From NCBI RefSeq assembly GCF_014904705.1, contig NZ_JACZCQ010000003.1, positions 496,001-560,000 on the forward strand: a DNA stretch of 64,000 nt, given 5' to 3'. Of the stretch, positions 1,046-56,980 are shown in pieces; within the stretch, counting starts at the first letter, position 1; each line of letters opens with the position of its first letter. Below the pieces are notes generated by a model that was not told the origin of the DNA, did not search any database, and saw only the letters and a program-made list of their open reading frames with translations. This stretch comes from Nisaea sediminum. Lineage in GTDB: Bacteria > Pseudomonadota > Alphaproteobacteria > Thalassobaculales > Thalassobaculaceae. The translations under genes were made by a program, and so were the position numbers.

Positions 1046-2209
1046 TCAGCGGTGGTGATCGTCCAGCCCCTGACGGCCGATTTCGACATCCTTGTGAACG
1101 TAGCAGTTGATAATCAGCCCGAAACCGATCATCGCCGTCAGCATCGCGGTGCCGCCGTAGGAGATCAGCGGCAGCGGAACGCCCACCACCGGGATCAGCC
1201 CCATGACCATCGCGATATTGATGAAGACGTAGAGGAACAGCGTCGTCGTGGTTCCGAGCGCCAGCAGGCGGCCGAACTGGCTCGAGCTGCGCAGCGCAAT
1301 GGCAAAACCGTAGCCGAGCGCCAGCACATAGAGCAGCAGCAGGAACATCGCCCCCGCCAGTCCCATCTCCTCGGCCAGCATGGTGAAGATGAAGTCGGTC
1401 TGTTTCTCCGGCAGGAAGTTCAGATGGCTCTGCGAGCCCTGCAGAAAGCCCTTGCCGAACAGCCCGCCGGAACCGAGGGCGATCTTCGACTGCAGGATGT
1501 GATAGCCGGCGCCGAGCGGATCGTTCTCGGGGTTGATGAAGGTGAGGATCCGGTTCTTCTGGTAATTGTGCAGGAACTGCCAGCCGACCGGGATCGCGGA
1601 GAGCCCGAGCACCAGCACAGTGATGAATTTCCACATCCGCACGCCGGCCAGGAAGAAGATCGCGCCGCCGCCGAGGATGATCATGCCCGCGGTGCCGAGA
1701 TCGGGCTGGCGCAGCACCAGGATGGCCGGCGCGAACACCAGGAAAAGCGGCGCGAACAGGCTGCGGATGCGCCCGACCTCCTCGAAGGTCAGGTGATGGA
1801 AGTAGCGCGCCAGGGCCAGCACCAGAGCCAGCTTCATCAGTTCCGAGGGCTGCAGGCGGAAGAACCCGACATCGATCCAGCGCTGCGCGCCCATGCCGAT
1901 CTCGCCCGCGATCTCGACCACGCCGAGCAGGCCGAGAGTGATGAAGTAGAACAGGTAGGCCCAGCGCAGCAGAAAGCGGATGTCGATCAGCGCGATGCCG
2001 AGTGTGATGACCAGACCGATGCCGAAACGGATCGCCTGGCGCACGGCCCAGGGCGTCCAGCTGCCGTTGGCGGCGGAATAGAGCATCGCGAAGCCGACCG
2101 AAGAGATCAGGACCAGAAGCAGGATCAGCCCCCAGTTGATCTGCTGCAGCTTGGTACCGAGCGTAAGCTCGGGCGGATTGAGGGAACTCGACGGCATTCC
2201 GATCGACAT
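1046..2209 (-). CDS. rodA: rod shape-determining protein RodA (SEDS glycosyltransferase)
   Basis: A 387-residue polytopic inner-membrane protein of the SEDS (FtsW/RodA/SpoVE) family, which polymerises lipid II glycan strands for side-wall growth together with PBP2. Hydrophobic helices run from LILLLVLISSVGFAMLYS near the N-terminus to the C-terminus. Family signatures are visible: GAQRWIDVGFFRLQPSELMKLA, with the conserved QPSE, and near the C-terminus GVPLPLISYGGTAM. Length is normal for RodA. It starts three bases after the mrdA stop, so the pair is translationally linked in the usual mrdA-rodA order. It is the fifth gene of the mreB-mreC-mreD-mrdA-rodA operon. Confidence 0.95.
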   Translation of the reverse strand: MSIGMPSSSLNPPELTLGTKLQQINWGLILLLVLISSVGFAMLYSAANGSWTPWAVRQAIRFGIGLVITLGIALIDIRFLLRWAYLFYFITLGLLGVVEIAGEIGMGAQRWIDVGFFRLQPSELMKLALVLALARYFHHLTFEEVGRIRSLFAPLFLVFAPAILVLRQPDLGTAGMIILGGGAIFFLAGVRMWKFITVLVLGLSAIPVGWQFLHNYQKNRILTFINPENDPLGAGYHILQSKIALGSGGLFGKGFLQGSQSHLNFLPEKQTDFIFTMLAEEMGLAGAMFLLLLYVLALGYGFAIALRSSSQFGRLLALGTTTTLFLYVFINIAMVMGLIPVVGVPLPLISYGGTAMLTAMIGFGLIINCYVHKDVEIGRQGLDDHHR

Positions 2210-21720: not shown

Positions 21721-21771
21721 ATCTCTCGATCTGCGGCCAACTCTCCTCTTTTTCCCGAGGGCACAAGCGCC

Positions 21772-21777
21772 TATATT
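21772..21777 (+). promoter_or_regulatory. probable ssrA -10 element
   Basis: TATATT, about 15 bases before the presumed 5' end of the tmRNA precursor. The -35 region is not clear by eye (the C/T-rich stretch CTCTTTTTCCC occupies it). Confidence 0.35.
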
Positions 21778-21787
21778 CAGCCTGTCG

Positions 21788-22103
21788 GGCAACCGACTAT
21801 GGCGATAAACGGCCTATGGAATAAGCATTGCGGACCCGGGGGCGGTACCCGGCGCCTCCACCAAAGATATCTGGCCTCACGGCTGGCTCCTTGGGGGCGA
21901 AATAGGATCGACGCGTGTGGTAAAGATAGTCTTTTCGCTCGGCATGGTTCCGCCGTTATCGGGCCATTATAGTAGTTGCAAACGACAACTATGCGGAAGC
22001 TCGCCTCGCTGCGTAAGCAGTCAGGTGCTTCAATTAAGTCCTAAGGGTTCGCACTTTTAGGCGGGGTTTGGGGCGCACCTGGCAACAGAAGCGTCCCGCT
22101 TAA
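21788..22103 (+). ncRNA. ssrA: circularly permuted two-piece tmRNA
   Basis: Transfer-messenger RNA that rescues stalled ribosomes and tags the nascent chain for proteolysis. The gene is permuted: the acceptor piece comes first and ends in CCTCCACCA at 21855-21863, and the coding piece starts with GGGGGCGA at 21893. GGGGGCG pairs with the CGCCTCC before ACCA (seven pairs, one G-U) to rebuild the acceptor stem. The tag frame starts with the GCA resume codon at 21978 and ends in TAA at 22014-22016, reading ANDNYAEARLAA, an alphaproteobacterial tag. The T-arm-like stem CCGGG/CCCGG is at about 21836-21852. Outer ends are approximate; the spacer 21864-21892 is presumably removed. sspB follows directly. 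Confidence 0.93.
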
Positions 22104-43336: not shown

Positions 43337-44500
43337 TCAGGCGGCCCGCGAGTTGGACTGCTTCACCTCGCCATAGGCCCAGTCGAGCCATGGCAGGAGC
43401 GCTTCCATGTCGGAGGCCTCGACCGTCGCCCCGCCCCAGAGCCTGAGCCCGGCCGGCGCGTCGCGGTAGCCGTTGATGTCAAAAGCGACACCTTCGGCCT
43501 CCAGCAGGCTGTCGATCTGCTTGGTCGCGGCCCGCTGGTCCACCTCTGAAAGCCCGTCGAACCAGGGATCGGAGATCGAGACGCAGATCGAGGTGCAGGA
43601 GCGCACTGCCGGATCCTTTGCAAGGAAGCCGGCCCAGTCGCTCGTCGCGACCCATTTCTCGACCGCGGCGAGATTGGCCTCGGAGCGGGCGATCAGGCCC
43701 TTCAGGCCGCCGACGCCTTCCGCCCATTTCAGCGCGTCGAGCACGTCCTCGACCGCCAGCATGGAGGGCGTGTTGATGGTCTCGCCCTTGAAGATGCCCT
43801 CGATGAGCTTGCCGCCCTTGGTCATGCGGAAGAGCTTTGGCAGCGGCCAGGCCGGGACATAGGTCTCCAGCCGTTCGACGGCGCGCGGGCTGAGGATCAG
43901 CATGCCGTGCGCCCCCTCGCCGCCCAGCACCTTCTGCCAGGAGAAGGTGGTGACGTCGAGCTTGTCCCAGGGCAGATCCATGGCGAAGACGGCCGAGGTC
44001 GCATCGCAGATCGTCAGCCCCTCGCGGTCATCGGCTATCCAGTCGCCGTTCGGGACGCGAACGCCTGAGGTGGTGCCGTTCCAGGTGAAGACCACGTCGC
44101 GCTTCGGATCCACTTTGGCCAGGTCGGCGATCTCGCCGTAGCCAGCCTCGATCACGCGGACATCCTTCAGCTTCAGCTGCTTGACCGCGTCGGTGACCCA
44201 GCCGGAGCCAAAGCTTTCCCAGGCCAGCAGGTCGACGCCGCGGGCACCGAGCATGGTCCACATGGCCATCTCGACGGCACCGGTGTCGGAGCCGGGCACG
44301 ATGCCGATCCGGTAATCGTCCGGCACGCCGAGCACGGCGCGGGTGCGGTCGATCACTTCCTTGAGTTTTGATTTTCCGATTTTCGAGCGGTGAGACCGCC
44401 CGAGAGCGGCGTCAGAGAGTGCAGCGGGGCCCCATCCGGGTCGCTTAGCGCAAGGTCCGGATGAGAACTGGGGAGCGCGCGGGGTTGCCGTCGGCTTCAT
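43337..44500 (-). CDS. serC: phosphoserine aminotransferase
   Basis: A 387-residue class V aminotransferase converting phosphohydroxypyruvate to phosphoserine. The PLP lysine is in [17 protein letters not shown], and [12 protein letters not shown] at the N-terminus and [16 protein letters not shown] are typical of the alphaproteobacterial/archaeal-type enzyme. ATG 44500 has GAAGGA before it. It is the first gene of a serC-serA operon behind a structured leader. SerB is encoded at 11.9 kb. Confidence 0.95.
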
Positions 44501-44579
44501 CGTATCATCCTTCAATGTGACCACTCGTTGGGGAGTGGCGGCCCGCCGCTGACGCTATGGATTTCCGCGGCGCTGTCAA
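44501..44579 (-). promoter_or_regulatory. serC leader: promoter and probable serC RNA motif
   Basis: On the minus strand, TTGACA stands at 44579-44574 as a -35 element, with the -10 unclear. Next comes a GC-rich segment with GGCGG/CCGCC and a hairpin of perfect six-base arms (CCACTC, loop of six, GAGTGG; 44521-44538), then GAAGGA and the serC start. This matches what I recall of the serC motif, a conserved RNA upstream of serC-serA operons in alphaproteobacteria, ending close to the ribosome-binding site. The ligand, if any, is unknown. Confidence 0.5.
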
Positions 44580-44662: not shown

Positions 44663-44726
44663 CCCATTGTTGCAATGGGCTCAATTACATCGATAATTGG
44701 CTTAAATCTTTTGCAATAGTTGCAAA
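44663..44726. promoter_or_regulatory. cluster of three dyads with TTGCAA cores
   Basis: Three perfect or near-perfect palindromes within 65 bases: CCCATTG-TTG-CAATGGG (44663-44679), CAATTA-CATCGA-TAATTG (44682-44699) and TTTGCAA-TAG-TTGCAAA (44710-44726). They lie between the serC promoter and the small RNA promoter and are probably binding sites for one or more dimeric regulators. Confidence 0.4.
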
Positions 44727-44792: not shown

Positions 44793-44821
44793 TTGCACCG
44801 CGAAAAAATGCGACATATATT
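44793..44821 (+). promoter_or_regulatory. promoter of the small RNA
   Basis: TTGCAC at 44793-44798, a 17-base spacer, then TATATT at 44816-44821: a near-consensus vegetative promoter. The expected start is about 44828, which is the base of the first hairpin of the RNA below. Confidence 0.75.
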
Positions 44822-44827
44822 GTGCAC

Positions 44828-44912
44828 TGCAATACGGACTGCCCAGCCGTATTGTTTACTTCTTGGGCGTTTCCTCCCTTAACTCGGGCCGCTGAAAAGC
44901 GGCCCTTTTTTC
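44828..44912 (+). ncRNA. mmgR: MmgR/alpha-r8-like trans-acting small RNA
   Basis: About 85 nucleotides. Hairpin 1 has eight pairs (CAATACGG at 44830-44837, CCGTATTG at 44847-44854, nine-base loop). A single-stranded region follows with TTTCCTCCCT at 44870-44879, a stretch complementary to Shine-Dalgarno sequences. A Rho-independent terminator ends it: GGGCCGC (44886-44892), TGAAAA loop, GCGGCCC (44899-44905), six T's. Conserved UUUCCUCCCU next to a terminator hairpin is, as I recall, the hallmark of the alpha-r8 family, whose member MmgR limits polyhydroxybutyrate in Sinorhizobium. The overlapping short reading frames are not needed. Function here is inferred from the family. Confidence 0.75.
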
Positions 44913-45101
44913 TTGCCTACCGGCCGGATCTGACCGGCAAGTTCCGCCCCCCCAAGGGCGGCAGAAATCTCCTGCCCGATCACGCAGGATGATATTTTAT
45001 TATTTATTTTCAACATATTATCCATCTTCAACGCACTTGGCCCCGGAATTGCTCCGTTGCTTCCGACAACGAACACAGCATCCGAGACCTGGAGCAATTA
45101 A
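44913..45101. other. gap between the small RNA and the next gene
   Basis: No supportable gene. It begins with a second hairpin just after the small-RNA terminator (CTTGCC at 44912-44917 with GGCAAG at 44936-44941), and contains a strongly T/A-rich stretch at 44990-45030 that may be the promoter of the gene at 45102. Confidence 0.45.
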
Positions 45102-45611
45102 ATGGCTGATATCGATTTCCGAACCTGGCCCGCACACTCTTCCGACAGCGCCCACGGGCGCCAGGAATGGATGGTTCCCGCGGGTCGCTTCAATCGCGGC
45201 CACGGTAGGGCAAGCCTCGGAAACAGCGTTTCCGATGCCGCGAACCAGAATTTCGGGGCACCCGAGTTTTCCCTGCTCGACCAGCTTCCGGAAGTCATCG
45301 TCGATGCCGTTGGAGAATGGGCTCTGCACCTTCAGGGACAGTCCTGGCGCCTGCGCCGACGCGCCCTGAACCGTTTCGCCGAAGCCTTCGCGGACCAGTT
45401 TCTCGCTCTCAACCCGTCCCTCACGGACGAGGAATACGAGAGCCTGACCGATATTGGATATACCTGCCTGCTTGAGCTTCTCGACGAAGGCCAGCCACTG
45501 TTCGACCTCGACCAGGCCCATTGCTTCAAGCGTAGCGTCCATGACGCCCATAGGGACGCAGCGGAACTCTATCTGGCATTGAACGGCCCGTCTCCCGCGA
45601 CGGTTCACTGA
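45102..45611 (+). CDS. hypothetical protein
   Basis: A 169-residue soluble protein. The N-terminus is rich in His, Gly and Asn; the core PEFSLLDQLPEVIVDAVGEWALHLQG... looks like a helical bundle with acidic and aromatic residues (LNPSLTDEEYESLTDIGYTCLLELLDEGQPLFDL). I do not recognise it. GGAG precedes the ATG by eight bases, and a strong terminator follows at 45644-45671, so it is a complete single-gene unit. A long antisense frame over the same bases lacks these signals. Confidence 0.7.
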   Translation: MADIDFRTWPAHSSDSAHGRQEWMVPAGRFNRGHGRASLGNSVSDAANQNFGAPEFSLLDQLPEVIVDAVGEWALHLQGQSWRLRRRALNRFAEAFADQFLALNPSLTDEEYESLTDIGYTCLLELLDEGQPLFDLDQAHCFKRSVHDAHRDAAELYLALNGPSPATVH

Positions 45612-56086: not shown

Positions 56087-56980
56087 ATGTCTTCTGGCTC
56101 GAATGCCTTCGCCGTCGGCTCCGAATACGGCGTCTTGCGCGACGTCTATCTTTGCCGTCCCGACAATTTCCAGTGGTCCGACATCGCCAAGGAGGACACG
56201 ACCGCGAATGCCGTGGTCCGCGCCACCCTGCGCGACGGAGTGCCGTTCGACCGAAAGACGGCGGAAACCGGCTACCGCGAGTTTATTGACGCCTACGAGG
56301 GCGCCGGCGTCACCTGCCATTTCGTCGAGACGGACCCGGCACTGAGCTACCAGATCTATACCCGCGATCCGTCGGTCATGACCCCCTGGGGCGTCTTCCT
56401 CTGCCAGATGTACCGCCAGCAGCGCCGCGGCGAGATCGCCCCGACCTACCGCTTCTACGAGAAGCTCGGCATTCCGGTCTGGAACTGGGCGACGGCGGGG
56501 CCGATCGAGGGCGGCGATATCCATCTGATCAAGCCGGGCGTCGCGGTCGTCGGCTATACCGGTCAGCGCACCACCGAGGTCGCGGCAAAGCAGCTCCAGT
56601 CCTGGCTCGAAGCCGAGGGCTGGGAATGCCGCCTGCAGCGCTTTGCCGAGCATTTCCTCCATCTCGACCTGCTCTACGCCACGGTGAACGAGCGCCTCGC
56701 CCTGATGTGCCTCGACGTGCTGCCGGATGATTTCGTCGCCTGGGTGAAGGGCCACGGCATCCAGCCCGTCGCGGTCACCTACAAGGAGGCGATGCAGCTG
56801 CAGTGCAACTGCATGTCGCTCGGGGACGACCGGGTGATTTCCTCGAAGGGCGCGAAGCGCGTGAACGAGGCGCTGCGGGCCGAGGGCATCACGGTGCTCG
56901 ACCCGGACCTCTCCATGTTCACCCAGGCCGGCGGCGGCCCGCGCTGCCTCTCGATGGCGCTGAAACGGGAAACGGTCTAA
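56087..56980 (+). CDS. amidinotransferase/DDAH-like guanidino-modifying enzyme
   Basis: A 297-residue enzyme of the guanidino-group modifying superfamily (arginine deiminase, DDAH, glycine amidinotransferase). Visible catalytic elements are TRDPSVMTPWG, GPIEGGDIHLI (EGGD), the central His in EHFLHLDLLYATVNERLALM and Cys287 in GGGPRCLSMA. The pattern resembles dimethylarginine dimethylaminohydrolase-like proteins rather than arginine deiminase. Substrate likely arginine or a methylarginine. ATG 56087 has no good Shine-Dalgarno. It shares four bases with the convergent VOC gene. Confidence 0.85.
   Translation: MSSGSNAFAVGSEYGVLRDVYLCRPDNFQWSDIAKEDTTANAVVRATLRDGVPFDRKTAETGYREFIDAYEGAGVTCHFVETDPALSYQIYTRDPSVMTPWGVFLCQMYRQQRRGEIAPTYRFYEKLGIPVWNWATAGPIEGGDIHLIKPGVAVVGYTGQRTTEVAAKQLQSWLEAEGWECRLQRFAEHFLHLDLLYATVNERLALMCLDVLPDDFVAWVKGHGIQPVAVTYKEAMQLQCNCMSLGDDRVISSKGAKRVNEALRAEGITVLDPDLSMFTQAGGGPRCLSMALKRETV

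Follow-up and report, generated by a model that had tools for sequence, protein, structure and literature searches.

A 64,000-nucleotide stretch of DNA from Nisaea sediminum, referred to here as the window, encodes a small RNA of the alpha-r8 (MmgR/SisA-type) family, and we regard this assignment as settled, with hardly any room for doubt, as far as sequence allows. We think it likely that this RNA of about 83 nt is an Hfq-dependent seed repressor that is repressed by PhaR and carries an H-type pseudoknot. Most likely, the alpha-r8 RNA would act with Hfq as a repressor of translation: its seed, UUUCCUCCCU, would pair with AGGGAGGAAA at ribosome-binding sites, mainly those of genes for periplasmic solute-binding proteins and catabolic functions. 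PhaR (AniA) probably represses alpha-r8 from a site that covers the transcription start, and the level of the RNA would therefore follow the PHB/carbon state. The helix beside the seed, P2, probably takes its 5′ strand from the loop of the preceding hairpin, P1, and not from the usual local hairpin. The altered 5′ domain is a point beyond the original prediction made for this DNA. What is new is modest: a probable pseudoknot in the 5′ domain, PhaR-type control of alpha-r8 that is perhaps widespread, and a conserved list of putative targets.

The alpha-r8 transcription unit and its neighbours

The locus contains the following features, in window coordinates.

43337..44506, minus strand: serC (phosphoserine transaminase; NCBIfam), the upstream neighbour, genus-specific
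44499..44548, minus strand: serC-leader-like element (RF00517, 27.2 bits, below the cut-off of 35)
44793..44821, plus strand: sigma-70-type promoter, TTGCAC-17-TATATT, found by sequence inspection
44794..44802: weaker PhaR/AniA-like core, TGCACCGCG, over the -35 element
44823..44831: PhaR/AniA-like operator core, TGCACTGCA, between the -10 element and the transcription start
44829..44911, plus strand: alpha-r8 (MmgR/SisA-type) small RNA, about 83 nt with both ends inferred (RF00519, 46.7 bits; fold z -4.2)
44830..44854, plus strand: P1 hairpin of 8 pairs with loop ACUGCCCAG, covarying in the family
44840..44846, plus strand: proposed 5′ strand of P2, UGCCCAG, in the P1 loop, by complementarity of loop and strand
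44863..44869, plus strand: 3′ strand of P2, UUGGGCG, beside the seed
44870..44879, plus strand: seed, UUUCCUCCCU, the family 10-mer and a complement of ribosome-binding sites
44886..44911, plus strand: Rho-independent terminator with six T's, from a terminator scan
45102..45611, plus strand: 169-aa gene, the conserved downstream neighbour

The unit had been assigned to the MmgR/alpha-r8 family by the original prediction, and the Rfam search proposed there bears this out: RF00519 (suhB/mmgR) matches positions 44834-44920 above its gathering score of 41 bits, and a narrower search gives 45.3 bits. In the accessible text of PMC12559287, the alpha-r8 family is described by an internal 10-mer and a Rho-independent terminator, and MmgR is named as its sole characterised member before SisA. 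Both elements are found here, the 10-mer in a sequence that reads TTTCCTCCCT and the terminator 3′ of it. Upstream of the 10-mer, the P1 hairpin is present, and the local GCCC/GGGC hairpin of the RF00519 model has two of its four pairs broken, at the UUGGGCG strand.

The other parts of the unit are located much as originally described. The putative promoter has its -35 element at 44793-44798 and its -10 element at 44816-44821, with a spacer of 17; a consensus promoter scan made a single prediction, at 44670-44697, and did not flag it, so that the evidence for this promoter is inspection together with the resemblance of upstream sequences in relatives. The strong terminator has a stem of 8 pairs with a loop of 4 (44886-44905), followed by the six T's (44906-44911); the 1.1 kb scanned holds four terminator-like sites, compared with 1.5 expected from shuffles. 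An 84-nt transcript has a folding energy of -33.5 kcal/mol, compared with a mean of -19.6 for shuffled sequences (1 of 200 shuffles as good), and the terminator supplies much of the difference. The seed had been called single-stranded, which is likely and not absolute, because the minimum-energy fold contains a weak pairing of GGG with some of the CCUCCC block. Open frames of at least 60 aa cross the spot on both strands and none is supported as a gene, in agreement with the earlier view that the unit has no credible protein. Most likely, the unit is transcribed by itself between serC and the 169-aa gene.

Comparison of about 1.5 kb on each side of the loci confirmed the adjacency to serC and narrowed its scope: serC adjoins the main alpha-r8 copy in 5/5 Nisaea and in 0/9 other loci of the family, so that the proposed placement next to serC in this lineage holds for the genus and not family-wide. 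SerC itself is 97% identical to that of a Nisaea MAG and 90% identical to those of N. denitrificans and N. nitritireducens. Among 80 named serC loci, some with short flanks, the motif and a T run were found at three, all from Nisaea. The neighbour that is conserved in related genomes is the downstream 169-aa gene, present on the same strand in all 14 main-type loci of the Nisaea family, with matches that are partial in length in most of the non-Nisaea loci. The unit had been placed between a serC leader and a gene without known function; the gene indeed has no Pfam, PHROGs or NCBIfam match, whereas the leader scores below threshold. A gene for FGase, a typical though not defining neighbour of alpha-r8 in most species, is absent here, the neighbours being SerC and the 169-aa protein.

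The constant position of the 169-aa gene is what might be expected if the unit were its leader or attenuator. We consider this highly improbable: the gene begins about 190 nt beyond the terminator that closes the unit, the 57 alpha-r8 loci of other families that were compared (L113-L142, L146-L172) have no match to it, and SisA, according to the accessible text of PMC12559287, acts in trans.

At E ≤ 0.001, RF00519 was detected in all five Nisaea genomes, in 15 of 36 family genomes, a set in which many assemblies are small or incomplete, and in 225 of 387 genomes of the class, with 175 of the 225 above the cut-off. The order-level and family-level samples are identical, consisting of the same 36 genomes. 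Elsewhere in the window, at 21745-22100, we observed an alphaproteobacterial two-piece tmRNA (RF01849, 301.6 bits).

A proposed pseudoknot in the 5′ domain

An eight-pair hairpin near the predicted first base was part of the original description, and we found P1 to covary within the family. Its strands are CAATACGG (44830-44837) and CCGTATTG (44847-44854), extended by the pair G44829.T44855. Two MAFFT alignments, A1 and A2, shift P1 by one base between Nisaea and the rest of the family; because this puts P1 out of register, we counted pairs on hand-anchored stems. Across 10 distinct family 5′ domains in this hand-set register, six of the eight pairs show changes in both strands and every pair stays intact; most of the changes separate Nisaea from the other members of the family. 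In alignment A3, from which Nisaea is left out, one P1 pair alone changes on both sides.

The usual alpha-r8 layout, derived from 158 distinct sequences, has P1 near the first base, followed by a local P2 hairpin whose 3′ strand abuts the seed. A strong local P2 was found in 131 of the 158, its letters varying while pairing is kept (GCCC/GGGC, ACGCC/GGCGU, AACGC/GCGUU, AUACCC/GGGUAU). The Nisaea family keeps the 3′ strand as UUGGGCG (CAGGGCG in L019), has variable letters in place of the local 5′ strand, and carries UGCCCA(A/G) in the P1 loop. A strong local P2 is missing from 12 of 13 distinct Nisaea-family sequences, the exception being L012.

Pairing of the P1 loop with the retained 3′ strand would give P1 of 8 pairs, P2 of 7 pairs including two G.U, and connecting loops of 2, 0 and 8 nt. 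This geometry matches a classical H-type pseudoknot. The predicted helix has a stacking energy of about -14 kcal/mol in 12 of the 13 family sequences and of -11.3 kcal/mol in L019, which is without the two outer P2 pairs; L012 has both this helix and a strong local alternative. We compared P1 loops in an automatic test that left out 17 of the 158 sequences, those without P1 under its rules, and that mis-assigned P1 of L170. A helix of -11 kcal/mol stacking or better was found in 13/13 family sequences, compared with 13/115 others that have a strong local P2 and 1/13 others that lack one. When loops were limited to 10 nt, the helix was found in 13/13 family sequences, compared with 1/49 and 0/9, respectively (1/58 in total). 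The 13 of 13 are not 13 independent events, because the family sequences share descent. Shuffling the P1 loop of the window gave an equally good helix in about 1% of cases.

From these comparisons we lean, by a fair measure, towards an H-type pseudoknot for the 5′ domain of the Nisaea family. It would be about an even bet that the RNA kept the helix next to its seed while its fold topology changed, the P2 5′ strand having shifted from its place just after P1 into the P1 loop and tandem hairpins having become an H-type pseudoknot. The alternative is that no pseudoknot forms and P1 is a simple hairpin, as in a normal alpha-r8 RNA, the GCCCA of the loop being kept for some other purpose, for example as a further loop that binds targets or as a contact for a protein; we give this a lesser, though appreciable, chance. 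The letters of P2 are nearly invariant within the family, so that no covariation, and hence no compensatory change, backs the helix; the nested fold predicted for the 84-nt RNA is complete without a pseudoknot. Unpaired C-rich loops are, moreover, common in alphaproteobacterial small RNAs. Two observations speak against a plain P1: the loop is complementary to the seed-adjacent strand throughout the family and in only one of the other short-loop sequences, and the loop partner appears where the local 5′ strand has been lost.

If the pseudoknot, which we prefer, does form, a target or sponge that pairs beyond the seed and into UUGGGCG could do so only by opening the knot, and P2 would therefore act as a gate. 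A testable point of wider interest is that the helix next to the seed might be supplied by another part of the RNA. In the open literature, a scope that does not include the 2017 J. Bacteriol. MmgR paper or a 2016 phylogenetic study, we found no description of a pseudoknot in mmgR.

A general rule by which loss of the local P2 leads to a pseudoknot was rejected, as just one of the 13 sequences outside the Nisaea family that lack a strong local P2 conforms to it. Three sequences from three other families, L157, L170 and L155, resemble the pseudoknot layout by eye, L155 in a CGGGC/GCCCG version; these lineages may have acquired a comparable rearrangement of their own. Their loop-shuffle values (0.03, 0.19 and 0.02, respectively) are modest and belong to sequences chosen after inspection.

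Putative PhaR/AniA-type sites at the promoter

In S. meliloti, PhaR binds the mmgR promoter, with the consensus core YGCRNYGCR, according to the accessible text of PMC12542648. The site at 44823-44831 shares 14 letters (TATTGTGCACTGCA) with the phaP1 operator of S. meliloti shown in that paper. The weaker core over the -35 element also matches YGCRNYGCR and is found at this position in three of five Nisaea. Single matches to YGCRNYGCR are common by chance (53 in the window compared with 78 expected), whereas TGCACTGCA occurs twice, compared with 0.3 expected. The second TGCACTGCA, at window positions 56799-56807, may be a further PhaR-type site.

The pattern TGCNNNGCA is present at the operator position in 14/14 Nisaea-family loci. 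Over the class, it lies upstream of 84 of 158 alpha-r8 copies, compared with a mean of 14.2 (sd 4.0, maximum 24) for shuffles, which ignore relatedness. These sites form two clusters about 30 nt apart, the upstream cluster lying outside the transcript. Each of the five Nisaea has two phasin genes, and at least two core matches were found upstream of all 10, a count made without a chance control. We recognised no PhaR gene beside the phasin genes in two stretches surveyed by ORF listing alone.

We infer with good confidence, as an expectation and not as a result, that PhaR controls alpha-r8 in Nisaea. The operator-like palindromes could instead mark a regulator other than PhaR, or could simply reflect a conserved start of P1 that overlaps the site, and positions 44830-44831 are indeed both the end of the site and the first two bases of P1. 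This is unlikely given the two clusters, one of which is clear of the transcript, the core upstream of both phasin genes (again without a chance control), and the letters common with the phaP1 operator. About half of the compared alpha-r8 promoters have a PhaR-type site, which suggests that a circuit of PHB sensor and RNA is widespread, beyond rhizobia. The link to polyhydroxybutyrate raised in the original prediction is an indirect one, through the PhaR-type sites of the promoter and the presence of phasin genes in the genome; the exact anti-seed, by contrast, sits at transporter and catabolic genes.

Candidate targets and related RNAs

We counted 18 sites for the anti-seed AGGGAGGAAA in the N. 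sediminum genome, compared with two for the reversed pattern. Over five Nisaea genomes the totals are 79 and 10 (18/14/15/16/16 compared with 2/3/2/3/0). Three of the 79 were left out, two being the RNA's own gene and one lying after isocitrate lyase in genome G004; of the 76 examined, three more are the RNA's own gene, leaving 73 non-self sites. A total of 44 of these 73 (8 of 17 in N. sediminum) are at ribosome-binding distance before an open frame, which accords with the earlier description of the block as complementary to ribosome-binding sites. The rule used, which asks for a frame of at least 80 aa whose start codon lies 9-21 nt downstream of where the motif begins, admits probably spurious frames (such as L344 and L372), and AGGGAGGAAA is itself Shine-Dalgarno-like, so that the reversed pattern is a partial control, for site counts rather than for ORF distance.

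Genes at anti-seed sites include, by Pfam, those for DctP TRAP and ABC periplasmic-binding proteins, glycerol kinase, alanine dehydrogenase and HbpS-like proteins. The exact 10-mer is kept at a DctP-type TRAP binding protein in 5/5 Nisaea, at an ABC-type periplasmic binding protein in 4/5, and at glycerol kinase, a second DctP protein and a thiamine-pyrophosphate enzyme in 3/5 each. From these patterns it is very likely that the RNA represses genes for uptake and catabolism through its seed, and the conserved solute-binding-protein genes form a short list of candidate targets in this marine genus. GcvB uses an unpaired block to repress many mRNAs for periplasmic binding proteins. The Nisaea RNA may be likened to GcvB in its mode of action; as a member of the GcvB family (RF00022) it was rejected, at 19.1 bits against a cut-off of 42.

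The RNA resembles MmgR of S. meliloti in its match to the RF00519 covariance model, its UUUCCUCCCU, its terminator and its putative PhaR/AniA-type promoter site. Unlike MmgR, it has a broken local P2 with a proposed P2 partner in the P1 loop, and serC and the 169-aa gene as neighbours; in addition, only 2 of 10 phasin starts were readable, and the exact anti-seed was absent from both. According to the accessible text of PMC12559287, SisA of Caulobacter uses its seed to repress transport genes, TonB receptors among them, in an Hfq-dependent manner, and CrfA is its sponge. SisA-D of Caulobacter crescentus have the same 10-mer (PMC12559287), and the proposed Nisaea targets are likewise transport and metabolic genes, although they are TRAP and ABC binding proteins and not TonB receptors; nor did we find a conserved CrfA-like sponge in Nisaea.

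We observed a 16-nt perfect anti-seed 9 nt past the stop codon of isocitrate lyase (Pfam ICL; L283 near 1500-1522, minus strand; G000:C5:240407-240419). It is a possible sponge or target. G004 keeps 13 nt of it, G001 a part, and G002 and G003 none; because it is just partly kept across Nisaea, a conserved CrfA-like sponge is unsupported.

Other alpha-r8-like sequences were found in Nisaea and beyond. Four candidate paralogues (L002, L003, L009 and L011; 29 to 35 Rfam bits) were rejected, as they have no CCTCCC block, and L173, L008 and L010 were retained as siblings. These siblings, consisting of CUUCCUCCCAAAACUCGGGCCGC and a terminator, follow glutamine synthetase (Pfam) in three Nisaea genomes (L173 at G000:C1:691722-691795, minus strand), starting less than 90 nt past its stop codon with seed gaps of 83-86 nt. 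Their 3′-UTR position resembles that of E. coli GlnZ. A second alpha-r8 type, with an ACGCC-UGAU-GGCGU local hairpin after a GAUCGG hairpin, is present in other genera of the family (L021-L028, L030); our searches did not detect it in Nisaea. In another family, two genomes each carry three alpha-r8 copies in tandem, spaced within about 1 kb (L139, L142).
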